Assembly: GCA_003235575.1 (NCBI GenBank)
Contig: QJVW01000011.1
Span: 1 to 64,000 of the forward strand
Direction of reading: 5' to 3'
DNA: 64,000 bases
DNA from: Candidatus Eiseniibacteriota bacterium
GTDB lineage: Bacteria; Eisenbacteria; RBG-16-71-46; SZUA-252
Below are positions 2,219 to 6,769 of this stretch, piece after piece. Position 1 is the stretch's first letter. Every line of letters starts with the position of its first letter. The notes beneath the pieces were generated by a model, which was not told the origin of the DNA, ran no database searches, and saw nothing but the letters and a program-made list of their open reading frames with translations. The translations under genes and the position numbers were made by a program.

Positions 2219-3670
2219 CTATTCCTTCCCGAAACTGACCTGGTTCTTCCCGCGATCCTTCGAGAGGCGAAGGTTCATGTTGGCGCGCGTCCAGAGGTCA
2301 TGGGCGGTCTTGTCGCGGCCGGCGCGGTCGAGCCCCCGCGAGCGATCCATCTGAAGCGATACGTCGCCCGGGAACATGGCGCCTCCCATGCTGAGCGTGA
2401 CGCGGATCGCGTTTTCCCGGCCGTCCAGGCCCGGCACGACGATCGCGAGGTTCTGCGCCTTGACGCGAAGCCGCTCGCAGATTTCCTTGGCCTCGCTTCG
2501 CTCGGTTTCCGGGCTCAGGATGATCGCGAACTCCTCGCCGCCCCATCGCGCCACGGTGTCGAACGGGCGGAGGCTGGTGGAGAGGGTTTGGGAGATCTCC
2601 CGCAGGACGACGTTGCCCGCCTCGTAGCCGTAGGTGTCGTTCACCCGCTTGAAGTCGTCGATGTCGGCGATGACCAGCGCCATCGGTCGGCTTTCCCGGT
2701 AGGCGCGGGCCAGCTCGTGGTCGAGCTGTCGGCCGAAGTAGGGGCGATTGTAGATGCCCGTCAGCTCGTCGATCATGACGAGCATTCCCAGCTTCTTCAG
2801 CGTGCTGAGGAGATCCGTGGCGTGCTCGCCGACGACCGTGAGGATCCCGACGCGCTCGTCGGTGAAGAAGAGCGGCTCCTTGCTCCACGCCTCGAGGACG
2901 AACAGGAAGGGCGATCCGGGCTCTCCGACGCGCGCCATGGCCATCGAACGGTAGGGACCGGCGTTGCCCGACGGCTCGTAGGGGGCGACGGCCAAATGCA
3001 TCGTGGCGTCCATCGCCTCCGCGTCCACCATCGCGCGGACGAAGCCCTTCTCGGAAAGGTCCTCCACGTAGAGGGGCAGCGCCCGTTTGGCTACCCACGC
3101 TTCCGCCAGGGCGCGATTCCAGGGGGCGCCCTCGCTCACGGGCTGCACGTACCGGGCCTCGTCCAAGCCCCGCTCCAGAGAGTAGAGGCGTGCCTCATCG
3201 CATCCGAGCACGTCCCGCGCCGACGTGAGGATCGTCCGGAGAATGTCTCCGACGTCGGTCTGCAGGTACTCCGCGTTCCGCTCGTCCCGCGTGAAGAGCT
3301 TCCGCTCGACGGAAATCAGGTGCGAGAGGCTTCGGTAGAGAAGCCGGCTCCGCGCGTGCCAGTGCGGGCGCGTCGCCTTCGCCAGCGTTTCCGGCGGGGG
3401 CGACGCCGAGGCTGGAAGCAGGAACGACTCGCCCGACTGGGGCACGCGGTAGCGCACATAGGGTTTTCCGTCGCGGAGAAAGCGGTCGACGTACTCGAGC
3501 ACGCCCGCATCCCGCATTCGCTCAGCGAGTTCGAACGCCAATTCTTCGCGCCGGGGCTCGCTCAGACCGGAAAGCGTAAGCTCGATTTGACGTTGGCGCT
3601 CGGAGGGTAGCGCCTCGTGCAGCCAGAGCGATGAAAGGAAGGCCGTTTGGATGCGGCTGGTCTCGTTCAT
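2219..3670 (-). CDS. GAF-like + GGDEF diguanylate cyclase
   Basis: DELTGIYNRPYF, IADIDDFKRVNDTYGYEAGN, ARWGGEEFAIIL. RPFD I-site five residues upstream of GGEEF. Confidence 0.9.
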   Translation of the reverse strand: MNETSRIQTAFLSSLWLHEALPSERQRQIELTLSGLSEPRREELAFELAERMRDAGVLEYVDRFLRDGKPYVRYRVPQSGESFLLPASASPPPETLAKATRPHWHARSRLLYRSLSHLISVERKLFTRDERNAEYLQTDVGDILRTILTSARDVLGCDEARLYSLERGLDEARYVQPVSEGAPWNRALAEAWVAKRALPLYVEDLSEKGFVRAMVDAEAMDATMHLAVAPYEPSGNAGPYRSMAMARVGEPGSPFLFVLEAWSKEPLFFTDERVGILTVVGEHATDLLSTLKKLGMLVMIDELTGIYNRPYFGRQLDHELARAYRESRPMALVIADIDDFKRVNDTYGYEAGNVVLREISQTLSTSLRPFDTVARWGGEEFAIILSPETERSEAKEICERLRVKAQNLAIVVPGLDGRENAIRVTLSMGGAMFPGDVSLQMDRSRGLDRAGRDKTAHDLWTRANMNLRLSKDRGKNQVSFGKE

Positions 3671-3791: not shown

Positions 3792-3820
3792 TTGCATTTC
3801 CCATATCGATGTGCTAGCGT
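3792..3820 (+). promoter_or_regulatory. Candidate promoter TTGCAT-N17-TAGCGT; -10 overlapped by inverted repeat GTGCTA-N5-TAGCAC (3811-3827)
   Basis: Direct reading; upstream of the small exported protein and TPR regulator. Confidence 0.45.
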
Positions 3821-4077
3821 TTAGCACGGTAGCCGGAGTGCCTGCCCACGGAAAGGGTGCGCGTGGCTCTCACAATTCTCGCCCAAACGAAATCGTCCCC
3901 CAATCCCTCGAGGGATGCGCGTAGGCCCATCTCCCAGCCGTCTGCGCGAACCCATTGCCGTGTAACTATCTCCGGAATCGGAGCACGAGTGAACCATCGA
4001 TTGGAATGGATACTGTTTCCGCGCCTACCCCAAGTCGCGGGATTCGTAACACAAGCCGGAGACGTGGAGGCTGTCTC

Positions 4078-4383
4078 ATGGTAGGACCACGAGGACGTCA
4101 TCCTTGGATCCTGCGCATGGCACTCCTGTTCGGTCTCCTGGGGGCGCTCTGGATCTCGACGCCGAGCACCGTGCTCGCGAAACCGTTCCCGACCGAACCG
4201 GGTCCCACGGAATCCGGGGATCCGACGGCGGACGACGTTCCGAGCCCGACCCCGAAGCCGAAGGGACATGCTCCTCAGCTGCGCAGCGCGGTGCAGGAAA
4301 CGAACGTACGGACAGGCGACACGGTAGTCCGCATTCCATGGCGGACGTACCTGCGGCTCCTGATGCCCTTCCGGGTCTGGTAG
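4078..4383 (+). CDS. Small exported protein, about 101 aa (signal peptide or TM anchor, Pro/Thr-rich middle, basic-aromatic C-terminus)
   Basis: MVGPRGRHPWILRMALLFGLLGALWISTPSTVLAKPFPTEPG...RIPWRTYLRLLMPFRVW. Start chosen at ATG 4078 inside ORF 3955-4383. Confidence 0.55.
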   Translation: MVGPRGRHPWILRMALLFGLLGALWISTPSTVLAKPFPTEPGPTESGDPTADDVPSPTPKPKGHAPQLRSAVQETNVRTGDTVVRIPWRTYLRLLMPFRVW

Positions 4384-4415
4384 CCGTTCGACGCAACGAT
4401 AGGGAGAGCTAGGCT

Positions 4416-4440
4416 CCGGGGCGGCTGCGGGCCGCCCCGG
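4416..4440 (+). promoter_or_regulatory. Perfect 10-bp GC hairpin (CCGGGGCGGC-tgcgg-GCCGCCCCGG) just upstream of the TPR regulator start
   Basis: Direct inverted repeat with a 5-nt loop; no T-tract follows. Confidence 0.7.
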
Positions 4441-4450
4441 GAACTCGACC

Positions 4451-6769
4451 ATGCCGGAATCGCGCCAACCAAATACCGCCGCGGAGGCCCTGCTCGCGCG
4501 CCTGGAGGATTTGCTCGTCCACGCGCGGTTCTCGGACGTTCTCGAGGCGGTCGCCGAGGCAAGCGCCGAGGGTATCGGGGGCGAAGAACTCGCCGTTCCG
4601 CTCCTCCTCGCGCGGTGTCGCGCGCTGTTGGGACTGGGACGCTGGCGGGAGGTGTCGGAGGCGACGGAGCGGAAGCTGGAGGAGCTCTACGCCCTGCAGC
4701 CGGACCAGAAGCGCTCCATCCTCGAGTGCCACATCGCCGCGGGACGGTCCGCATGGCGCCTCGGGCGACCCTCGCGCGCCGAGGAGCATTTCCGCGCCGC
4801 CTACCACATCAGCCGCTGGGACTTCGAAGACACCGGCGGCATGCTCCGCACGCGAAACCTCCTGGGACTCTGCTTCCTCGGCGCCGGCGACCTCCATCGC
4901 GCGGCCGCGGAGTTCGAGCGCGGTCGTCGCGAAGCCGCGGAGGCCGGGCACCATCACGAGGAAGCCGCTTTCGCGCTGAACGGGAGCATCGCGGCGCTGA
5001 AGCTGGGCCACTTCGATCGAGCCGAAGCGGATCTCGATCGCGCGCGCCAGCTCTACGCCGAACGCGGACACTCGCGCGGCAAGGTTCAGGCGCGCTTGGT
5101 CCGCGGCTGGCTCCTGCGCCTTCGCGGCGACCTGCGCGCGTCCGATTGGGAGACGCGCGGGGCGCTTTCGGAAGCGGAGGAGCACGGCTTCGACCGCGAG
5201 CGCGTGATCGCGCTCGAGTATCTCGGCGAGGTCGCAATCGACCGCCACGACAACCAGGCGGCCATCGAGCACCTCGACGAGGCGCTCGGTCTGGCGGAGC
5301 GCCTGGCTCCCGAGGGAGACCTGATTCCCGAGATCTGCCGCCGGGTCGCCGAAGTGCACACCCGCATCGGCGAACCGAATCGCGCGTTGGTCACCTGCGA
5401 ACGCGGCCTCCGCATCGCGCGGAAGATCAACGATCGCTTCGAGGAAGCGGCGACGCACCGCGTCATGGCGTCGGCCCACCTTCTGCTGGGGCACCGCGAG
5501 CGCGCGATTCGCTTGGCGCAGGAAGGCATCCTCGCGCTTCGAAAGCTGGACGCGGGACACGAACTGCTGCGGCTCCTGACCTGGACGGGCGAGGCATTGC
5601 TCGCGGGGGGAGACGCCGAGGACCGCCGGCAGGCGCGCGACTTCCTGTGGGAGGCCCGCAGCCTCTCCATGTCGATGGGACTCGACGCCTGGATCGCGCG
5701 CGTCGAAAAGGTGCTCGGGGTCGAACTGCATGCCCTCCCGATCGGAAACGCCCCGTACGTGGAGGCGGGCGAGGCGCTTCCGCCGGGGGCGGATCCGCGC
5801 GCCTTCCGCTACGGCATCGTCACGGGCGATGCGCGCATCGCGGAGCTGCTGCGCATCGTGGAGCGCGCGGCCAACAGCCGGCTGCCGATCCTGATCCTGG
5901 GTGAGAGCGGCGTCGGCAAGGAACTCCTGGCCCGGGCCGCGCATGCGACCAGCGATCGCCGCACCGGCGTGTTCGTGGTCAGCCATTGCGCCGCGCTCCC
6001 GGAAGGGCGTCTCGACGTCGAGCTCTTCGGTGAGGAGTCCGAGGTCGGCACGGCGGGGCGGAACGTGCGTCCAGGGCTGTTCGAAGCCGCGGACCGCGGC
6101 GTGATCTTCCTCGACGAGGTGAGCGAGCTCCTGAGCGGAGCCCAGGCGAAGCTGCTCCGGGTCATCGAGAACGGGGAGTTGCGCCGCGTCGGCGCGGTCG
6201 CGCTCCAGCAGGTGGACGTTCGCGTGATCGCGGCCTCCACGCGTGACGTTCCCGTGCTGGTTCGCCGCGGCCTCTTCCGGGACGATCTGTACTACCGTTT
6301 GAACGGCATTCGCCTCGAAATCCCGCCGCTCCGCGACCGTCCGGGAGATATCCGCCTCATCGGCCAGTATTGGCTCGATCGGATGTGCGAGCAGGCGCAC
6401 AAGCGTCTGCGCCTCACCGAATCCGCCTGGGCGGTGCTGGAAGCCCATGGGTGGCCGGGCAACGTCCGCGAACTGCGGAACGTGCTCGACCGCGTCGTGG
6501 CGCTGGGGCGCGACGGCGACGAGGTCGCGGCCGAGGCGATTCACATTCCGGTCACGGGCACCGGGCGCCGGGGCGCGACGCGCGCGCGCCGGGGAACGAA
6601 GCCGGAGCGCGCCGCCGAACGCGACGCGATCTTGAACGCGCTCCGCGCGCACAACGGGAACCAGTCCGAGGCCGCCCGCAGTTTGGACGGCATGAAGCGG
6701 ACGACCTTCCTCTACAAGATCAAGAAGCACGACATCAAGCCCGAGGAATACGGCCCCACGGACCGGTAG
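4451..6769 (+). CDS. TPR-repeat sensor + AAA+ (sigma54-interaction-like) + Fis-type HTH regulator, GAFTGA loop absent
   Basis: N-terminal TPR-like helical repeats; Walker A GESGVGKELLARAAH; Walker B GVIFLDEV; R-finger region FRDDLYYRLNGIRLEIPPLRDR; C-terminal NGNQSEAARSLDGMKRTTFLYKIKK. Confidence 0.88.
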   Translation: MPESRQPNTAAEALLARLEDLLVHARFSDVLEAVAEASAEGIGGEELAVPLLLARCRALLGLGRWREVSEATERKLEELYALQPDQKRSILECHIAAGRSAWRLGRPSRAEEHFRAAYHISRWDFEDTGGMLRTRNLLGLCFLGAGDLHRAAAEFERGRREAAEAGHHHEEAAFALNGSIAALKLGHFDRAEADLDRARQLYAERGHSRGKVQARLVRGWLLRLRGDLRASDWETRGALSEAEEHGFDRERVIALEYLGEVAIDRHDNQAAIEHLDEALGLAERLAPEGDLIPEICRRVAEVHTRIGEPNRALVTCERGLRIARKINDRFEEAATHRVMASAHLLLGHRERAIRLAQEGILALRKLDAGHELLRLLTWTGEALLAGGDAEDRRQARDFLWEARSLSMSMGLDAWIARVEKVLGVELHALPIGNAPYVEAGEALPPGADPRAFRYGIVTGDARIAELLRIVERAANSRLPILILGESGVGKELLARAAHATSDRRTGVFVVSHCAALPEGRLDVELFGEESEVGTAGRNVRPGLFEAADRGVIFLDEVSELLSGAQAKLLRVIENGELRRVGAVALQQVDVRVIAASTRDVPVLVRRGLFRDDLYYRLNGIRLEIPPLRDRPGDIRLIGQYWLDRMCEQAHKRLRLTESAWAVLEAHGWPGNVRELRNVLDRVVALGRDGDEVAAEAIHIPVTGTGRRGATRARRGTKPERAAERDAILNALRAHNGNQSEAARSLDGMKRTTFLYKIKKHDIKPEEYGPTDR

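Follow-up and report, generated by a model that had tools for sequence, protein, structure and literature searches.

A small exported protein gene paired with a TPR-AAA+ regulator in Candidatus Eisenbacteria and other phyla: a candidate propeptide-receptor pair

At the locus analyzed here, a gene for a small exported protein lies directly upstream of a gene for a regulator with a tetratricopeptide repeat (TPR) sensor region, and we think it fairly probable that the two form one signalling unit. They would constitute a propeptide-receptor pair whose ligand is a short core within the small protein, sensed by the TPRs, in the manner of RRNPPA systems but with unrelated enhancer-binding proteins (EBPs) as receptors; signalling could run between cells or serve self-sensing. 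The computed results are adjacency across phyla, a signal-like N-terminus by rule, purifying selection within the family, cores specific to each paralogue, peptide repeats in a family designated f9, and a TPR fold. The chances are about even that such pairs represent an undescribed trans-phylum class, in which sigma54-type activators with a TPR superhelix sense a paired exported acidic peptide through several channels per genome.

The locus and its family orthologues

The window (the whole stretch of DNA analyzed, 64,000 nt) comes from a 2.9-Mb draft genome; the named relatives are metagenome-assembled Candidatus Eisenbacteria, one of them labelled Latescibacterota. We assigned the following features within it, all on the + strand.

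3792-3820, +: sigma70-type promoter-like pair, TTGCAT (3792-3797) and TAGCGT (3815-3820), with a 17-nt spacer ending in TGC; present in 9/9 family genomes
3828-3868, +: conserved leader block GGTAGCCGG..CCCACGGAAAGGGTGCGCGTGGCT, just past the promoter-like pair; present in 9/9 family genomes
4078-4383, +: small exported protein of 101 aa, proposed peptide precursor (propeptide); based on family orthologues
4078-4179, +: signal peptide of the small protein with AxA-like site STVLA|K, assigned by eye; layout common to all orthologues
4216-4257, +: acidic core GDPTADDVPSPTPK, proposed active segment; invariant residues in 9/9 orthologues
4330-4380, +: basic-aromatic C-terminal tail RIPWRTYLRLLMPFRVW of the small protein; character kept, residues vary
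4416-4440, +: G+C-rich hairpin CCGGGGCGGCTGCGGGCCGCCCCGG between the small gene and the regulator, with no T run; similar repeats in most family orthologues
4451-6769, +: TPR-AAA+-Fis regulator of 772 aa, proposed receptor; based on Pfam domains and orthologues
4469-5716, +: TPR superhelix, residues 7-422, 21 helices; AlphaFold2 pLDDT 89.3
5819-6316, +: AAA+ sigma54-interaction domain with intact Walker A GESGVGK; Pfam Sigma54_activat, E 7e-49, and alignment
6041-6058, +: L1 loop EVGTAG replacing GAFTGA; motif degenerate here and in the other set-1 orthologues of the alignment (eight in all)
6614-6730, +: Fis-type helix-turn-helix (HTH); HTH_8, E 1e-8

The small ORF is preceded by GGAGG (4066-4070) and encodes a protein with an n/h/c signal-peptide layout, in which a basic N-terminus and a hydrophobic stretch are followed by a Pro/Thr-rich part and the end RIPWRTYLRLLMPFRVW. 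Together with the AxA-like site and the orthologues described below, these features confirm the 101-aa exported ORF that an earlier note on this DNA had placed beside a TPR regulator. An in-frame ATG occurs 24-28 codons upstream in several orthologues, and the start at 4078 is one candidate. The small protein is 98-109 aa long in family orthologues and up to ~130 aa long elsewhere; its sequence had no match in Pfam or NCBIfam, which rules out a protein family known to either database.

In each of the 8 other genomes of the family (G001-G008), the regulator orthologue is immediately preceded by an orthologue of the small ORF, with matches at E 1e-6 to 1e-10 from the single sequence and E 4e-29 to 1e-37 from a profile; the regulator orthologues in these genomes share 65-69% identity with the regulator at 4451-6769. 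Our search of 47 genomes of the phylum identified no confident copy of this small protein away from the regulator. The dN/dS ratio of the small ORF was <1 in 36/36 pairwise comparisons, most of them near saturation (closest pair: dN 0.17, dS 0.59). A chance ORF in GC-rich DNA is ruled out by the orthologues, by dN/dS, and by the pairing relative to control regulators (see below).

Within the small protein, residues G47 D48 P49 T50, D53, and P55-K60 are invariant in 9/9 orthologues, and the signal-peptide layout and the core GDPT[AG][DE]DxPSPTPK (GDPTADDxPSPTPK at 4078-4383) are kept across the proteins of this set, referred to as set 1. The tail keeps its W/Y, R, and hydrophobic character while its residues change among orthologues, and AlphaFold2 modelled it as a low-confidence helix in one orthologue. 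Based on this pattern, the active segment is likely to be the acidic core rather than the basic-aromatic end.

Position 3792, the start given in the earlier note, is the first base of the -35-like box TTGCAT, and the pattern TTGnnT / TGnTAnnnT with 17-nt spacing occurs at the same alignment place in 9/9 family genomes. The strongly conserved block downstream of it sits 172-266 nt ahead of the small ORF across the nine genomes; a 36-nt pattern drawn from this leader matched once per genome, at this locus alone, in the 5 genomes with matches. No known RNA element was recognized in the leader: 3828-3868 had no match in Rfam, and the predicted stem had neither two-sided covariation nor a fold bias (shuffle z -0.14); the block is a candidate RNA leader or operator. 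The regulator starts 67 nt past the stop codon of the small ORF on the same strand, and most family orthologues have similar inverted repeats in the gap between the two genes. On the other side of the intergenic region upstream of the pair lies a divergent gene for a GAF-GGDEF diguanylate cyclase (2219-3670, - strand).

The sensor region of the regulator matches Pfam TPR_12 and TPR_2. GAFTGA or a close variant occurs in the 14 other regulators of alignment A3, and the motif is degenerate in set 1. In the set-1 regulators of G001 and G004 (alignment A5), the Walker A lysine is also replaced by arginine (GEKGSGREL), and the two changes together suggest that ATPase function has been lost in these proteins. 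The sigma54 gene rpoN was identified in 43/45 genomes, including the one that carries the window. The loss of GAFTGA, taken with the sigma70-type promoter-like element, points to an output of the set-1 regulator that has moved off sigma54; in this family the regulator probably no longer acts via sigma54, and the locus would be a derived case. The set-1 regulator would instead act through DNA binding, a mode of action for which TyrR is a precedent.

Pairing of small exported ORFs with TPR-type regulators

A profile of TPR-containing EBPs (TPR-EBPs) matched in 47/47 genomes of the phylum, and we asked how often such regulators have a small exported ORF upstream. The sample comprised 94 TPR-EBPs of the phylum and 24 from genomes outside the phylum but within the same domain. 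An automatic rule required a same-strand ORF of 55-200 aa with ribosome-binding-like bases, a signal-peptide-like start, and a stop near the regulator; the limit applies to the whole ORF, which keeps out internal starts in long genes. By this rule, 109/118 TPR-EBPs are paired: 72/80 and 14/14 of those from Candidatus Eisenbacteria and 23/24 of those from other phyla. In the same 109 pairs, the rule-based n/h/c signal predicts Sec export. In contrast, only 1/27 non-TPR EBPs of the same phylum had an upstream small exported ORF, and this sole match is an out-of-frame artefact. The difference corresponds to Fisher p=4.9e-20. This value should be taken as a guide, since related genomes do not provide independent observations and the search for loci started from homology to regulators whose pairing had already been seen; for the same reasons, the counts cannot serve as an unbiased census.

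Inspection by eye raised the number of paired regulators to 115/118, as 6 of the 9 rule failures carry the ORF; upstream of the other three (L136, L219, L220) no small exported ORF was seen by eye. Three additional loci from two genomes of other phyla (L293, L294, L308) are also paired. The refutation proposed in the earlier note, that the small ORF would prove unconserved or would turn up in unrelated contexts, did not materialize: the pair is kept in the family, in the phylum, and beyond, and the one match among 27 control EBPs is spurious.

Several individual loci depart from the simple arrangement. At L108 (G003:C35), the TPR-EBP orthologue is split over two overlapping frames, reflecting a frameshift, a pseudogene, or an assembly error; the small ORF is still present, with the core GDPDATGN. 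At L127 (584-1514, G021), one TPR-EBP is preceded by two small ORFs in tandem that are nearly identical, a duplication of the proposed precursor gene. In the paralogous pairs L294 and L308, both in G343 from another phylum, the small proteins have no GDPD core and share an acidic C-terminal segment, PDEPxKSxTDP...RDHG..ED.

The pairing lends partial support to the earlier proposal of a functional link between the small protein and the TPR regulator, with the qualification that the set-1 regulator itself has lost GAFTGA. Sigma54 promoter-like sites occur in 3/108 upstream regions of pairs, compared with 0.6 expected from a simple shuffle; sites this rare rule out general sigma54 autoregulation of the pairs.

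Peptide cores, the TPR sensor, and alternative readings

The mature small proteins have a median length of 87 aa, and the core is a short acidic stretch after the signal peptide, often GDPDxP. The pattern G[DE][PGHDI][DTEG] occurs in 83/112 mature parts, compared with a shuffled mean of 10.4 (maximum 17), an enrichment that is descriptive because the pattern was chosen after viewing the sequences; GDPD itself occurs in 49/112. The genomes of the family to which the window belongs (f1) have several pairs with different cores, each kept between genera: GDPT[AG][DE]DxPSPTPK in set 1 (9/9), G[ST]PDET in set 2 (7/7: L092, L111, L112, L114, L115, L124, L147), and GD[GN]DGxxVK in set 3 (5/5: L089, L229, L232, L291, L292).

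In family f9, the octapeptide ALGEEFPE occurs five times in the G033 precursor (L142, 483-881) and twice in the G029 precursor (L141 reverse complement, up to 823), and the G017 precursor (L215 reverse complement, about 1813-2115) has two copies of ALGEEFPE and one of GLGEEFPE. Codons differ among the copies, the spacers are unrelated, and all three precursors end in the octapeptide, without a basic-aromatic tail. A search of 46 genomes, G033 not among them, identified the LGEEFPE coding pattern only at such precursor loci; a related peptide, GTPFEEPE, recurs in G014, G031, and G025. By analogy, the f9 repeats strongly resemble a multi-copy pheromone precursor. Graspetide-like precursors also carry repeats; we tentatively rejected the idea that the proteins with ALGEEFPE repeats are RiPP precursors, since they have signal peptides.

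Structural neighbours of the TPR model in the PDB include LGN/Pins, pLS20 Rap, MalT domain III, and APC5; as LGN and Rap bind peptides, the fold is of a peptide-binding type, which by itself does not point to RRNPPA. In an alignment of 56 TPR-EBPs, A helices hold 10 columns that are ≥70% basic and B helices hold 2; R249 never varies (56/56). The A and B labels follow the alternation of helices along the AlphaFold2 model, not coordinates. A helices of TPRs normally line the groove. The groove cannot be described as purely basic, since conserved acidic columns favour A helices too (9, compared with 2 on B helices). Structure prediction of the peptide against the TPR domain, which the earlier note had recommended, was run on orthologue L163 as a fused AlphaFold2 model of the mature small protein and the TPR domain, with the TGA read through; based on a shallow alignment, this model gave no confident placement of the core (pLDDT of about 30).

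Taken together, the paralogue-specific cores, the tandem octapeptides, and the polar residues on alternate helices make a role as TPR ligand the best inference for the small protein. The earlier suggestion that the small protein or a fragment of it could be the ligand is partly supported, and the likely active part has shifted from the tail to the core. In the mechanism we propose, the small gene would encode a Sec-exported precursor, and the acidic core (GDPTADDVPSPTPK at this locus) would be released, presumably by cutting, or presented as the ligand. The core would then reach the cytoplasm by re-import, or would be sensed before export, which is the weakest step of the scheme. There, the TPR superhelix would recognise it, presumably in the groove, and binding would control the AAA+/DNA-binding half and may thereby alter transcription. 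OppA-type binding proteins (PF00496) were identified in 40/45 genomes; the five genomes of these 45 with no PF00496 match (G013, G016, G019, G017, G024) all carry pairs, and one of them, G017, has a multi-copy precursor. A universal Opp route for re-import is therefore not supported.

The main rival, which we consider unlikely, is a sensor of the precursor before export: unexported precursor would bind the TPRs, accumulate when Sec export or envelope capacity becomes limiting, and switch the regulator, with no intercellular signal. One-to-one pairing and a kept core and signal peptide fit this reading equally well, the core is not fast-evolving, and no re-import is required, which suits the genomes without an OppA-type match. 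However, tandem octapeptides with variable spacers are easier to understand as cut-out peptides, though multivalent binding is possible, and several pairs with different cores per genome would be superfluous for a general monitor.

It is improbable that the small protein is a regulated output, that is, a secreted effector (e.g., membrane-active or antimicrobial, with an amphipathic tail) that the regulator merely controls. Many members have a tail with Trp/Tyr, Arg, and hydrophobic residues, modelled in the one case above as a low-confidence helix; yet it is the acidic core that is conserved while the tail varies, the f9 multi-copy precursors (L141, L142, L215) have no such tail, and an effector would not readily account for a near-obligate pair across phyla with paralogue-specific cores. 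Sigma54-like sites are rare upstream of pairs, so there is also no clear sign that an EBP activates the small gene beside it. Less probable still is an envelope partner, in which the exported small protein acts outside (e.g., as an envelope scaffold or metal-binding acidic protein) in a process controlled by the regulator, so that the two never meet; predicted export and an acidic core agree with it, but it leaves the restriction of pairing to TPR-type EBPs and the octapeptide copies unexplained.

Comparison with known systems

The earlier note had not recognised the pairing as a described system, and our search of the open full-text literature likewise turned up no account of TPR-EBPs that have exported peptides as partners. 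If the propeptide-receptor reading is true, the principle of peptide sensing by TPRs would extend well past Firmicutes, to an uncultured phylum and others, and would be tied to sigma54 regulators. The predicted ligands (e.g., GDPTADDVPSPTPK and ALGEEFPE) are short enough to be synthesized, and with a receptor domain modelled at high confidence the proposal is directly testable. The pairing also suggests what many of the small exported proteins that lack annotation in these genomes may do.

Among activators with a solved sensor, domain III of MalT resembles our superhelix model (TM 0.62 by query and 0.74 by target). MalT, a LuxR-type protein that senses maltotriose, differs in having no paired exported precursor. 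EBPs of the NtrC/NorR class share with the regulators described here the AAA+ sigma54-interaction domain with Walker A/B and the Fis-type HTH; in contrast, the regulators here have a long TPR superhelix as sensor region and an exported small protein encoded next to them, and set 1 is without GAFTGA. At the locus in the window, the AAA+ domain with Walker A/B is present and the genome has rpoN, whereas the GAFTGA loop is absent.

The tandem-pheromone propeptides of the Phr105 type (PMC11343458) resemble the f9 precursor L142 in that an exported precursor repeats one short peptide and the spacers between the copies are not conserved, although their peptides and receptors are unrelated to those of f9. 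More broadly, RRNPPA systems (Rap, Rgg, NprR, PlcR, PrgX, AimR) also consist of adjacent genes, one for a small precursor exported by Sec and one for a TPR protein. Their intergenic distance is in a similar range, their precursors include ones with repeated identical short peptides (up to 8 identical copies; PMC11343458), and their receptors have a TPR superhelix, with pLS20 Rap among the structural neighbours of our model. Published RRNPP criteria are a precursor of 10-100 aa, Sec export, a receptor of 250-500 aa, TPRs, and neighbouring genes (PMC10075063). Predicted export, TPRs, and adjacency are all found at the locus, and the 101-aa precursor is at the upper edge of the published range or just above it; the receptor is outside it, as TPR-EBPs are about 740-1080 aa long, with an AAA+ EBP module and a Fis HTH, compared with 250-500 aa for RRNPPA receptors.

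Surveys of cytoplasmic TPR peptide receptors cover Firmicutes, their phages, and plasmids (PMC10075063, PMC9765709), and unlike RRNPPA systems of Firmicutes, the pairs described here occur in Candidatus Eisenbacteria and other phyla. The core here, a proposed ligand, is internal and acidic, often followed by a basic-aromatic tail, also unlike RRNPPA; it is conserved over long distances, whereas kin-specific quorum-sensing pheromones are typically fast-changing, and the mature parts are longer than most RRNPPA propeptides. Given the differences in receptor size, output domain, and taxonomic range, we do not file the pairs as RRNPPA. The pair nonetheless plausibly works like an RRNPPA system.
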